Shown: in pieces, positions 9,248-55,122 of the stretch | Numbering within the stretch: position 1 is the stretch's first letter | How the letters are laid out: each line of letters begins with the position of its first letter | Assembly (NCBI GenBank): GCA_030147845.1 | Contig: JASBUN010000046.1 | Location: forward strand, 1-64,000 | Origin: Gammaproteobacteria bacterium | GTDB taxonomy: Bacteria; Pseudomonadota; Gammaproteobacteria; JASBUN01 | Length of the DNA: 64,000 bases | Direction of reading: 5' to 3' | Position numbers and translations under genes: made by a program | Notes under the pieces: generated by a model | The model's input: only the letters and a program-made list of their open reading frames with translations | What the model was told of the DNA's origin: nothing | The model's database searches: none

Positions 9248-9340
9248 GAGCCTGTCGGGCTTAGGACTGATCTGCTGCGAAAAAGCCATTTCGGCCAAAC
9301 TCGCTTGCCCTCATTACGATCGCCTAAGTTCGACACGCTC
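9248..9340. mobile_element. Family-2 palindromic MITE-like element, short type (93 bp), decayed flanks CTGG / CGAG
   Basis: GAGCCTGTCGGGCTTAGGACTGATCT...CGATCGCCTAAGTTCGACACGCTC; inverted-repeat ends; same length as the copies at 2779 and 55030. Confidence 0.7.
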
Positions 9341-13862: not shown

Positions 13863-14022
13863 GCGTGTGGCGGACCTAGGCGGTCGTAACGAGGGAAAGC
13901 GAGTTTGCGGCGAAAGCTTCGATCGCTCAAGGGTTACAACCGTCGCTATTGGACGAGAAGGATCGGCTATTTCGGCCAAAATGTCTTTTCCGCGGTAGAT
14001 CAGCGCTAAGCGCGACAGTCTC
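13863..14022. mobile_element. Family-2 palindromic MITE-like element, long type (160 bp), flanked both sides by CTAG
   Basis: CTAG at 13859-13862 and 14023-14026. Ends GCGTGTGGCGGACCTAGG... / ...GCGCGACAGTCTC. Shares the internal segment GATCCTTCTCGTC(C/A)AA(T/C)AGCGACG (- strand) with the 28275 copy. Confidence 0.75.
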
Positions 14023-17408: not shown

Positions 17409-17548
17409 AAGTGGTTGAAAAACCCTTGGGCGGCACGCTATGCGGCGTCGGAAAACGGCTCAAAAGCTCATTTACCGGCGTGGAAACTGTCTTGTCTCGC
17501 CGTTCTCCGCCTGCTCTGCCATCCATCGGAGATTTTTTCAACCATCTG
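17409..17548. mobile_element. Family-1 MITE-like element, degenerate copy (about 140 bp)
   Basis: GTGGTTGAAAAACCC...GCGGCGTCGGAAAACGGCTCAAAAGCTCATTTAC...TTTTTTCAACCATCTG aligns with the 28421 copy; right flank CCAG. Confidence 0.65.
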
Positions 17549-17592
17549 CCAGCCCGATTTGCGACCAGATAACGGCGAGAAAAACGTTCACA

Positions 17593-28274: not shown

Positions 28275-28580
28275 CGTCCTGTCGGGCTCGGGAGGAACCT
28301 ACTGAGAAGAAGCCATTTGCGCCGGAACGTCCGATCCTTCTCGTCAAACAGCGACGCTCGATGTCCTCAAACAGTCAGGTGCTTCGCCTCAGACCAGCGC
28401 CCCTCGTTACGATCGTCTAACGGGTTGTTGAAAAGCCATCGGGCAGCGCCATGCGGCGTTGGGAAACGGCTCAAAATGCTCATTTACTGACATGTAAACT
28501 GCGCTTTCCCGCCGTTTTCCGCCTTGTCTGGCATCCACCAGAGACTTTTTCAACAACCTGCTAAGTCGCATGGAAGGCGC
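28275..28580. mobile_element. Family-2 palindromic MITE-like element, long type, interrupted by a family-1 insertion (segments 28275..28420 and 28565..28580)
   Basis: Left end CGTCCTGTCGGGCTCGG; shared core CCGATCCTTCTCGTC; CCCTCGTTACGATCGTCTAA resumes after the inserted element as CTAAGTCGCATGG...GCGC, then CTAG. About 162 bp once the insertion is removed. Confidence 0.65.
28421..28560. mobile_element. Family-1 MITE-like element (140 bp) with direct CTAA flanks
   Basis: CTAA(28417-28420)-CGGGTTGTTGAAAAG...CTTTTTCAACAACCTG-CTAA(28561-28564). Confidence 0.85.
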
Positions 28581-51133: not shown

Positions 51134-52240
51134 TCAGACAAACGTAGCTAAATCGACCGGCATTCGCCGCGCACACCACTCGCCCGCGCGGGCCTCGAAT
51201 AGTCCGGCGCACTGCGTCCCACAGAACGTGCAGCAGCCGTGCCGATCCAGGTTCCAGTCCGCCAGCACGTACCAATTTCGCCCAATCAGTTTCTTGCCGC
51301 AGCCGTGACAATACGTGCTACCACCCGCCGAGTCATGCACGTTACCGGTATAGACATAACGTAGGCCGTTGCCGAGCGCAATTTCGCGTGCGCGGGACAA
51401 CGTCGCCGCCGGCGTCGGCGGTCGATTACGCATTTGCCAATCCGGGTGGAACGCCGTGAAGTGCCAAGGCACGTCGACACCCAAATGCTGCACGCCCCAT
51501 CGGGTCATGGCATCGATCTCCGCCGTGGAGTCGTTCATGCCCGGAATGAGCAGCGTGGTAATTTCAAACCAGACATTGGTGTCATGCTTGAGATACACGA
51601 GCGTATCCAGCACCGGCTGTAGCTTGCCGCCGGTTACCTTGCGGTAAAAATCGTCCGTAAACCCTTTCAGGTCGACGTTGACGGCATCCATACAACGGAA
51701 AAATTCCTGTCGCGGCGCAGCGTTGAAATAGCCGGCGGTAACCGCCACCGACTTGATGCCGTGTTCGCGGCACGCCAGCGCGACGTCAATCGCGTATTCC
51801 ATAAAAACGGCCGGATCGTTATAGGTAAAAGCTACACTGCGACAGTCCAACTCACGCGCCGCACGGGCGATGGTCGTGCACTCTGCCCGATCGGTCAATG
51901 TATCGAGCTGGCGTGATTTGCTTATATCCCAGTTCTGACAAAATTTGCAGGCCAGATTGCAGCCGGCGGTACCAAAACTGAGCACCGGCGTCCCGGGCAG
52001 AAAGTGATTGAGGGGCTTTTTCTCAATCGGGTCGACACAGAAGCCGCTGGAACGGCCATAGGTGGTAAGCACCACTTGCTGGTCACGGCAGGCACGCACG
52101 AAACACAAGCCGCGCTGTCCCTCGCGCAGCCTGCAGGCGCGCGGACATACATCGCACTGCACGCGCCCGTCGTCAAGCGAGTGCCAATGGCGCGTCGACA
52201 CGGTATCGGAAGTCATTTCGGACACGCTGGACACCTCCAA
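51134..52240 (-). CDS. amrS: AmmeMemoRadiSam system radical SAM enzyme
   Basis: CDVCPRACRLREGQRGLC; GTAGCNLACKFCQNWDISKSR; SVAFTYNDPAVFMEYAIDVALACREHGIKSVAVTAGY. Confidence 0.94.
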   Translation of the reverse strand: MEVSSVSEMTSDTVSTRHWHSLDDGRVQCDVCPRACRLREGQRGLCFVRACRDQQVVLTTYGRSSGFCVDPIEKKPLNHFLPGTPVLSFGTAGCNLACKFCQNWDISKSRQLDTLTDRAECTTIARAARELDCRSVAFTYNDPAVFMEYAIDVALACREHGIKSVAVTAGYFNAAPRQEFFRCMDAVNVDLKGFTDDFYRKVTGGKLQPVLDTLVYLKHDTNVWFEITTLLIPGMNDSTAEIDAMTRWGVQHLGVDVPWHFTAFHPDWQMRNRPPTPAATLSRAREIALGNGLRYVYTGNVHDSAGGSTYCHGCGKKLIGRNWYVLADWNLDRHGCCTFCGTQCAGLFEARAGEWCARRMPVDLATFV

Positions 52241-52360
52241 TACACCATCGCGAACAAGCCGATGGCCTTAGTATAGAACGCCCACACTGCGTTGGTGACG
52301 CCGGCGTCCGCACGGCGCGCTATACTAGCGGCCTAGGCCGACATTTCGGGAGCATGGTTT

Positions 52361-53146
52361 ATGAACGTTTCGCGACCAGCCGCCGTCGCCGGGACATTTT
52401 ATCCGCATGATGCCCTTACTTTAAGTCGCTCGATCCGCGAACTGCTCGCCAACAGCCGAGCGGACGGAACGGCGCCGAAAGCACTGATCGCACCGCACGC
52501 CGGCTATATTTATTCCGGCGCAATCGCCGCCAGCGCCTATGCCCGTGTGTCGCTCAGCGCTGCCGCCATTACGCGCGTCGTCTTGCTGGGACCGTCACAT
52601 CGCATTGGTTTCAGCGGCTTGGCGCAAACCAGCGCGCGGCAATTTCTAACGCCCTTGGGTGCGGTCGAGATCGACCGCGACGCCTATCATCACATTTCCG
52701 CCCTGCCACAAATGCGGATATGCGATCCCGCGCACGAAATCGAACATAGTTTAGAGGTACACATCCCTTTCTTGCAGGAAACGCTGGGCGACTTCCGTTT
52801 GGTGCCGTTAGTGGTCGGCGACGCCACCGCCGTGCAAGTCAGTGAAGTGCTGGAGCGGCTGTGGGGTGGACCTGAAACACTGATCGTGGTGAGCTCCGAT
52901 CTGAGCCACTACCATGACTACGCGACCGCGCAGGCGATGGACCGGCGCACTTCGACGGCCATCGAACGGTTTGAGGTTAAAAAAATATGCGCCCGACACG
53001 CCTGCGGGCACAATCCGATCATCGGCTTACTACAAGCCGCACGTCACCATGAGTTGCGCGCCACGACGCTGGATTTGCGCAACTCCGGCGACACGGCCGG
53101 CAGTCGTGATCGAGTGGTGGGTTATGGCGCCTATTGCTTCAACTGA
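52361..53146 (+). CDS. amrB: AmmeMemoRadiSam system protein B (MEMO1 family)
   Basis: PAAVAGTFYPHDALTLSRSI; LIAPHAGYIYSGAIAASAYA; LLGPSHRIGFSGLA; VVSSDLSHYHDY. Confidence 0.94.
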   Translation: MNVSRPAAVAGTFYPHDALTLSRSIRELLANSRADGTAPKALIAPHAGYIYSGAIAASAYARVSLSAAAITRVVLLGPSHRIGFSGLAQTSARQFLTPLGAVEIDRDAYHHISALPQMRICDPAHEIEHSLEVHIPFLQETLGDFRLVPLVVGDATAVQVSEVLERLWGGPETLIVVSSDLSHYHDYATAQAMDRRTSTAIERFEVKKICARHACGHNPIIGLLQAARHHELRATTLDLRNSGDTAGSRDRVVGYGAYCFN

Positions 53147-53711
53147 GCCGCCGACGTACCAATACGCGCAACATCGCGCCACGCTCTTGGAACTCGCGCG
53201 CGCGGCTATCCTGAGCGCCTTTGATGACCGCGCGGGGCAAGATGCTGCCGTCGAAAATTACGCAAAACCGCTGCTCGAGGCGCGCGCCTGTTTTGTCACC
53301 TTACGACTGGATGGCCAGTTGCGCGGGTGCATCGGCAGCCTGGAGGCGGATCGATCCTTGCTGGAAGATATTCGGGCCAATGCCCATGCCGCGGCGTTCT
53401 GCGATCCACGCTTTCGTGCGCTGAGCGTCGACGAATTCGAGCGTCTACAAATAGAAATTTCAATCCTCAACGCGCCGATCGCCCTGTCATTTAGCAACCA
53501 GTTCGAACTCAGTGCGCAACTGCGCCCGGGCATCGATGGCGTGATCCTGGCCGCGGACGGACGACGCAGCACCTTTTTGCCCAGCGTATGGGCAGCGTTA
53601 CCCGATGTCGGCGATTTTTTGCGCCAATTGAAAATCAAGGCCGGCCTGCCTGGCGACTATTGGTCGGAACGTGTCCGCGCCTGGCGCTACACCACGCAGT
53701 CGATCAACTGA
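53124..53711 (+). CDS. amrA: AmmeMemoRadiSam system protein A (AMMECR1 domain)
   Basis: ACFVTLRLDGQLRGCIGSLEADRSLLEDIRANAHAAAFCDPRF. ATG at 53124 overlaps the end of amrB. Confidence 0.93.
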   Translation: MAPIASTEPPTYQYAQHRATLLELARAAILSAFDDRAGQDAAVENYAKPLLEARACFVTLRLDGQLRGCIGSLEADRSLLEDIRANAHAAAFCDPRFRALSVDEFERLQIEISILNAPIALSFSNQFELSAQLRPGIDGVILAADGRRSTFLPSVWAALPDVGDFLRQLKIKAGLPGDYWSERVRAWRYTTQSIN

Positions 53712-53735
53712 ACTTGCCAACGGCGGCGCACCAGG

Positions 53736-53800
53736 AGTCTGTCGGACTTAGGCGATCGTAGCGAGCAAGGTGGGAGAGCGGTCCTAAGTCCGACAGACTC
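53736..53800. mobile_element. Family-2 palindromic element, minimal type (65 bp); flanks CCAG / CTAG
   Basis: GAGTCTGTCGGACTTAGG...CCTAAGTCCGACAGACTC perfect inverted repeat. Confidence 0.75.
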
Positions 53801-53804
53801 CTAG

Positions 53805-53943
53805 CAGGTTGTTGAAAAGTCTCCGGTGGATGCCAGACAAGGCGGAAAACGGCGAGAAAGCGCAGTTTACACGCCGGTAAATGAGTATTTTGAGCCGTTT
53901 TCCAACGCCGCATGGCGCCGCCCGAGGGTTTTTCAACAACCTG
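53805..53943. mobile_element. Family-1 MITE-like element (139 bp) with direct CTAG flanks
   Basis: CTAG(53801-53804)-CAGGTTGTTGAAAA...TTTTCAACAACCTG-CTAG(53944-53947); perfect 14-bp terminal inverted repeats. Confidence 0.9.
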
Positions 53944-54861
53944 CTAGGGCGCGCTGCGCAGACAACGCCCCACAGAACCGTCGGCACATACCCGTCCGTC
54001 GACCCAAATCGCTTTGTCCAGGCGTGCACCACGAAACAAGGTGCCATCAATATTGGCGCCGCGCAGGTCAACGAACGACAAATCGGCATTATCGAAGCGG
54101 GCGTGGGATAAATCGGCGTTACGTAGCCCGGCGCCCACCAGCCGTGCGCCCAACAAACTGGCAAAACGCAGATCGCTGCTGCTCAAATTGGTATAGGCGA
54201 GATTGGCCATATCCAGTACCGCGCCGTGCAGATCGGCGCCGCGCAGATCGGCATTATCGACTTGTGCGCGGCGAATATCGGCGCCGGCCGCGCGCAAACC
54301 TTCACGATTACAGTTACTCCAATTTACTGCCACCGCCGGTGGTGCCGCACAGTCGGGACGAGCCGCCGATCGACTCGGCAAAGCGTGATAAACAAACAAT
54401 CCGATGCCGACCAGCAGCGTCAATATGACCGCGAGCACAATACTGCCGCCGACCCAACTCTGGCGCGACTGGCTCAGCTCCTGCTGGCGCCGGCGTACCT
54501 CACGGTGGGAAATCAATATCGGCTCTTCCTGCACGCGGCGCTCAGGCGCATGCCGCCTCACCCCGACCATAGCGGCGCGGCTGCGGCGCTCGCGCAAACG
54601 CTCGTCCTCGCGCATGCGCGCCATGAGGTAACGTTGCCGACCTTCTTCGGTATCCAGGTGCAGCATTTCCTCCGGCATCAGTTCCGCGATGTCGCCGATG
54701 CTGAACCACTGCTCCCGATCAGCGCTGACTTCGTCCGCTGCTTGCAGGCGACCCAGCAATACGAAGCGCCGAATCAGGCCGGCCGGGAACGGGCCCTTAA
54801 CGCCGCCTTGATGGCGCGTAAACCACAAATGGTGAGCCTGTTTGCCGGCATCTTCACTCAT
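53944..54861 (-). CDS. Membrane protein with GYF-like N-terminal domain, one TM helix and C-terminal pentapeptide repeats
   Basis: N-terminus LWFTRHQGGVKGPFPAGLIRRFVLLGRLQAADEVSADREQWFSI; TM SIVLAVILTLLVGIGLFVYHAL; repeats DNADLRGADLHGAVLDMANLAYTNLSSSDLRFASLLGARL. Confidence 0.85.
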   Translation of the reverse strand: MSEDAGKQAHHLWFTRHQGGVKGPFPAGLIRRFVLLGRLQAADEVSADREQWFSIGDIAELMPEEMLHLDTEEGRQRYLMARMREDERLRERRSRAAMVGVRRHAPERRVQEEPILISHREVRRRQQELSQSRQSWVGGSIVLAVILTLLVGIGLFVYHALPSRSAARPDCAAPPAVAVNWSNCNREGLRAAGADIRRAQVDNADLRGADLHGAVLDMANLAYTNLSSSDLRFASLLGARLVGAGLRNADLSHARFDNADLSFVDLRGANIDGTLFRGARLDKAIWVDGRVCADGSVGRCLRSAP

Positions 54862-55029: not shown

Positions 55030-55122
55030 AAGCGTGTCGGACTCAGGCGACCGCAACCAGGGCAAGCGAGCATGACGCGAACGGCTTTCGCGCAATAGAT
55101 CAGTCTTAAGTCCAACAGACTT
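55030..55122. mobile_element. Family-2 palindromic MITE-like element, short type (93 bp); right flank CTAG
   Basis: AAGCGTGTCGGACTCAGGCGACCGCAACCAGGGCAAGCGAG...TAGATCAGTCTTAAGTCCAACAGACTT. Confidence 0.65.

Follow-up and report, generated by a model that had tools for sequence, protein, structure and literature searches.

Results

Two short elements abut between amrA and a pentapeptide-repeat gene

Between the AMMECR1 gene amrA and a convergent pentapeptide-repeat gene, the window (the whole 64-kb stretch of DNA analyzed here) carries two short elements that meet at a single CTAG. The arrangement reads CTAG-F2-CTAG-F1-CTAG, where F2 and F1 are members of two repeat families, family-2 and family-1, and where the left copy has decayed to CCAG. 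Direct reading of the sequence agreed within one base with the coordinates that an earlier note had given for both elements and the CTAG they have in common. Features of the interval are as follows.

52914-53711, plus strand: amrA, the upstream AMMECR1 gene, which terminates ahead of the elements (PF01871, E 3.6e-42)
53731-53734: CCAG, one change away from CTAG, the left target duplication of family-2 after decay (other family-2 copies are flanked by CTAG or CTAA)
53735-53800: family-2 MITE, 66-bp short form, with 18-20 bp perfect terminal inverted repeats GAGTCTGTCGGACTTAGG (repeat search, profile, fold)
53801-53804: common CTAG, which serves family-2 as right and family-1 as left target duplication (sequence)
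53805-53943: family-1 MITE, 139 bp, an imperfect palindrome with ends CAGGTTGTTGAAAA ... TTTTTCAACAACCTG (repeats; about 20 genome copies)
53844-53903, plus strand: structured core of family-1, with an outer stem, tandem G-A mismatches, a conserved internal loop and a TTTAC/GTAAA stem (covariance model, covariation)
53944-53947: CTAG, right target duplication of family-1 (sequence)
53944-54861, minus strand: pentapeptide-repeat gene, convergent with amrA (PF00805, E 4.3e-17)

Further copies of the two families in the window are:

2780-2870: family-2 copy, 93-bp form (profile)
9248-9340: family-2 copy, 93-bp form (profile)
13865-14021: family-2 copy, about 160-bp form (profile)
17411-17549: decayed third family-1 copy, not associated with family-2 (BLAST, covariance model)
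28417-28564: isc locus, family-1 (28421-28560) within a terminal repeat of family-2 (about 28278-28420) (profile, flanks)
55030-55122: family-2 copy, 93-bp form, with CTAG on the right (profile)

A repeat search delimited the arms of the family-2 palindrome as two 20-nt segments (53733-53752 and 53783-53802) that are 100% complementary, and the 66-bp copy folds at -38 kcal/mol (z -6.4). A search for a terminator-like site at 53650-54050 was negative. The pentapeptide-repeat gene ends in a TAG stop codon (53944-53946, minus strand) that sits within the right CTAG of family-1, and the insertion point thus leaves that protein unchanged. Adjoining the elements, radical SAM, Memo and AMMECR1 genes are grouped at 51134-53711 of the window.

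Family-1 carries the termini of IS5-family elements

Family-1 ends in CAGGYTGTTGAAAAA and family-2 in SAGYCTGTCGGACTTAG. With up to 3 mismatches allowed, the family-1 motif AGCAGGTTGTTGAAAA matched 5 times in the window versus 0.3 in shuffles, and the family-2 motif AGTCTGTCGGACTTAGG 6 times versus 0.06; neither terminal repeat is a chance occurrence. Three family-1 copies lie in the window. BLAST against the genome from which the window derives (3.66 Mb in 68 contigs) returned 33 matches, of which about 20 span all or nearly all of the element. Most copies measure 138-141 bp without the duplication, have terminal inverted repeats and lack a transposase gene, and mean identity among them is 95%. 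Identical 4-bp flanks were seen in 9 of 20 copies and conform to YTAR in every instance (CTAG, TTAA, CTAA); flanks of the remainder differ mostly by decay. Because the non-palindromic CTAA stands on both sides of two copies, all four bases must be duplicated, which rules out a 2-bp TA duplication. The start of contig C25 (G000:C25:36-65) and the end of contig C46 (G000:C46:40316-40345) carry the same flank and a family-1 element, and the assembly seems to have broken at a MITE here.

YTAR-CAGGYTGTTGAAAAA with a 4-bp duplication also bounds both ends of IS5-family insertion sequences (ISs) on plasmids of three bacteria: Pandoraea vervacti (1335 bp, CTAG/CTAG), Thiolapillus brandeum (1303 bp, TTAG/TTAG) and Methylocella tundrae (CTAG/CTAG; IS5 by record annotation). 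Transposases of the Pandoraea and Thiolapillus ISs pass the NCBIfam IS5 model NF033581 at 272-279 bits, against a cut-off of 140. Judged by its termini and flanks, family-1 is in all probability a MITE of IS5-family type that duplicates the 4 bp YTAR.

IS5 is known to duplicate Py-T-A-Pu (YTAR), CTAG most often (PMC5493358, PMC10359306). Family-1 resembles E. coli IS5 and the ISs of model NF033581 in its YTAR duplication and the frequency of CTAG, and its termini match those of the latter, but it differs from the IS5 family in having no transposase gene. A close described parallel in kind is MITEPsy1 of Pseudomonas syringae, an active IS5-like MITE of about 100 bp that duplicates CTAG or YTAA and of which 2 of 6 copies lie inside other transposons (PMC3189936). 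MITEPsy1 differs in its terminal repeats (GGAAGGTCTGAAAAAGCC), in having been shown to transpose and in having a proposed helper IS in the same genome (PMC3189936).

Family-2 carries the termini of IS1182-family elements

A sequence profile detected 21 family-2 copies in the genome at E below 1e-5, with a mean identity of 72%. Full copies are about 160 bp, and shorter forms of 93-96 bp and 66 bp look like internal deletions. Individual copies mostly retain at most one intact CTAG. Six of the 21 copies fall within the window, where 0.37 would be expected (P about 1e-6), and a search of the remainder of contig C7 (64-240 kb) yielded no further copy.

The terminal motif TAGSAGYCTGTCGGACTTAGS recurs in at least 120 stretches from Proteobacteria, Verrucomicrobia, Nitrospirota, Acidobacteria and other groups. 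Among the TAGSAGYCTGTCGGACTTAGS loci listed (L140-L219), MITEs of 159-161 bp with CTAG on both sides are common. Constancy of length and terminal motif across many phyla suggests either wide horizontal spread or a length constraint. Full-length ISs with family-2 ends occur in Mesorhizobium AR07, Pontiella sulfatireligans and an Acidobacteriaceae MAG (L130, L164 and L183), where the repeat begins with either G or C. The Mesorhizobium IS is flanked by CTAG/CTAG, and its transposase passes the IS1182 model NF033551 (353 bits versus a cut-off of 270). That of Pontiella is 1617 bp, also with CTAG/CTAG, and that of the Acidobacteriaceae MAG is about 1.6 kb; the transposases of these two were called IS1182 by eye, from their resemblance to that of Mesorhizobium. 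By itself, the Mesorhizobium match (16 identical bases in 7.3 Gb) is not significant; it gains weight from its position, exactly at both ends of a CTAG-flanked IS, and from two more ISs that are alike. Family-2 thus compares with the Mesorhizobium and Pontiella ISs in termini and CTAG duplication and differs in lacking a transposase, and it is most likely a MITE with IS1182-family termini. The replacement of a palindrome without duplication that characterizes the IS1272 branch of IS1182 (PMC5678879) is not seen in family-2.

Family-1 copies in or against family-2

Of about 20 family-1 copies, three are nested in family-2 or abut it, and all three use YTAR sites of family-2 ends. Besides the pair described above, the nesting noted previously at the isc locus proved real: family-1 interrupts the family-2 terminal repeat at a CTAA, which is duplicated on both sides (28417-28420 and 28561-28564). 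Joining the flanks restores only GTC and adds 5.6 bits to the family-2 profile score, a small gain because the outer family-2 repeat has largely decayed. In the third case, outside the window, family-1 at G000:C5:180157-180303 interrupts a family-2 terminal repeat at a TTAG, and once its flanks are joined the family-2 profile score climbs from 125.3 to 140.7 bits.

We searched 369 genomes of the class for the junction of a family-2 end, YTAR and a family-1 start, allowing up to 3 mismatches; all comparisons with relatives refer to this class only. Eight genomes matched, compared with none for a reversed control. Both elements were recognizable at the junction in G066 (L291, L296, L300), in G326 (L289) and in the genome under study, and the junction loci also include a pair of family-1 elements with one common CTAA. 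G066 has a very high load of family-1-type ends (512 in 3.1 Mb), and junctions with a common YTAR involve less than 1% of them.

A folded core is common to MITEs with different termini

BLAST of family-1 against relatives matched only the central part of the element in several genomes. These core matches lie in MITEs with termini that include, besides CAGGCTGTTGAAAAA, GCGCCCCTATAAATTC, AGAGCCTATTCAAA, TCCTACTGTGTCACAAA, GGGAACCTCTGATTAATTC, TTAAGGAGCCTCTGATTAA and GAAGTTGTATAACA; within Gammaproteobacteria, the core is thus common to MITEs whose terminal repeats are of at least six kinds. Core loci in the window are 53844-53903, 28453-28525 (minus strand) and 17442-17513 (minus strand), and others are L097, L102, L111, L117, L118, L122 and L335-L338. 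The covariance model, R2, matched 53839-53911 at 81 bits. In an alignment of 20 distinct cores, a 10-bp outer stem is variable in sequence yet paired, with changes on both sides in 14 of 19 pairs, and tandem G-A mismatches are present in 18-19 of the 20. Part of the invariance of the inner core bases is a product of selection, since the sequences were gathered by means of these bases. The covariation score of 0.415 exceeds that of slid controls (at most 0.18) and shuffles (0.13), with the caution that palindromic DNA can covary without RNA. Folding is 12 kcal/mol more favorable for the strand with the G-A pairs than for its complement, an indication that the structure is directional.

Rfam gave no match to the family-1 element up to E 1, and exact core strings did not occur in the literature searched. 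Another MITE with variable ends and a conserved core, QMITE1 of Coxiella (PMC5896051), was weighed as a possible relative of the core-bearing MITEs and was set apart by its description, in which no relatives in other genomes are reported (PMC5896051). A more speculative reading starts from the make-up of the core, a folded and strand-asymmetric module with a variable stem of 10 bp, tandem G-A mismatches, an AAAA/TTTT stem, an invariant internal loop and a TTTAC/GTAAA stem. On this reading, the module might be a component, of structured RNA or of single-strand DNA, that does not depend on the transposase for its function and is swapped between MITE families. Abutting or nested insertions like the present pair are a possible route of such swapping. 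The analysis has thus uncovered a folded core that is widespread within MITEs and absent from Rfam.

Discussion

Collectively, these data make it very probable that two non-autonomous elements, served in trans by transposases of IS5 and IS1182 type, made independent insertions into one kind of target. Family-1 would be moved by an IS5-family and family-2 by an IS1182-family transposase, each enzyme cutting at a 4-bp YTAR (with a preference of family-2 for CTAG) and duplicating all four bases. Since the duplicated bases are the whole recognized target, each insertion would leave an intact target at both edges. The family-2 terminal repeats themselves include a TTAG and a CTAA; together with the edge targets, these would allow a later YTAR element to land at the edge or just inside. 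Such landing would yield CTAG-F2-CTAG-F1-CTAG here and the nested copies at the two other loci.

The suggestion in the earlier note that the families may share one transposase conflicts with their termini, which differ and match full-length ISs of two separate families (NF033581 versus NF033551). Movement of both by a single enzyme, or reciprocal targeting, would explain the same 4-bp target class, and the two transposase families are indeed related: the IS5-type transposase P0001 reaches 211 bits on the IS1182 model, under the cut-off of 270. Each terminal repeat is nonetheless carried by its own full-length IS family, and no insertion of family-2 into family-1 was seen, which counts against reciprocity; we consider either version very unlikely. 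Family-1 and family-2 appear instead to depend on related but different transposase families with a common target. PF01609 (DDE_Tnp_1), PF05598 (DUF772) and P0001 had no match in the assembly (68 contigs, 93.8% complete), so both families are orphans in it. A helper IS in the same genome, usual but not required for an IS5-family MITE, was accordingly not found for family-1. The helper may have been lost, or an autonomous copy may be absent from the 93.8% complete assembly.

How much association is left to explain depends on the sites taken as available. With all YTAR sites as the pool, the null predicts 0.08-0.12 cases (P about 1e-4); with intergenic YTAR sites, at a density extrapolated from 130 kb and in a test that was post hoc, the expectation is 0.47-0.72 and P is 0.01-0.03. 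Most of the association is accounted for by a common target together with intergenic placement, and the corrected null leaves a modest excess of 3 cases over 0.5-0.7. On these figures, the proposal that the families target each other finds slight support. The earlier note had held that a lack of association elsewhere would make its cases chance, and 17 of the 20 family-1 copies are indeed away from family-2. Still, pure chance with no effect of a common target seems highly improbable in view of the all-YTAR null and of the use of family-2-end sites by all three associated copies. The modest excess could also reflect a real preference of family-1, beyond YTAR, for palindromic repeats such as family-2. 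Precedent exists in the reported preference of IS711 for the palindromic Bru-RS of Brucella (PMC2266754) and in some IS1182 members, which are said to target palindromes (PMC5678879). IS711 is likewise a YTAR-targeting IS found in short palindromic repeats, but Bru-RS is a reported hot spot (PMC2266754), whereas the excess here is small. Moreover, folding of joined family-1 flanks differs little from that of random intergenic YTAR sites, with a slight shift in favor of the former (-18.7 versus -17.0 kcal/mol, P 0.06), and G066 offers only 3-4 convincing junctions among its 512 family-1-type ends. Such a preference is accordingly rather unlikely. Least probable of all is a composite element that moves as a unit: the two parts abut exactly, but this exact junction is single in the genome while each part occurs alone about 20 times. 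Landing of a mobile element in a MITE has also been described for IS1111 and QMITE2 of Coxiella, where the families are different and the target is a REP inside the MITE (PMC5896051).

It had been proposed that family-1 inserted into the CTAG at the end of an earlier family-2 element. True insertion holds at the two other loci, and at the amrA locus there are two insertions with one common target copy, a structure that looks identical whichever element came second. That family-2 arrived first is the likelier order, which we infer from the greater age of the family (72% versus 95% identity) and from the decay of its left flank to CCAG.

The abutting pair is ordinary insertion behavior and fits known kinds. 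It offers a simple rule for the clustering of YTAR elements: each insertion regenerates its target on both sides, and scarce CTAG sites thereby breed landing sites for other families.
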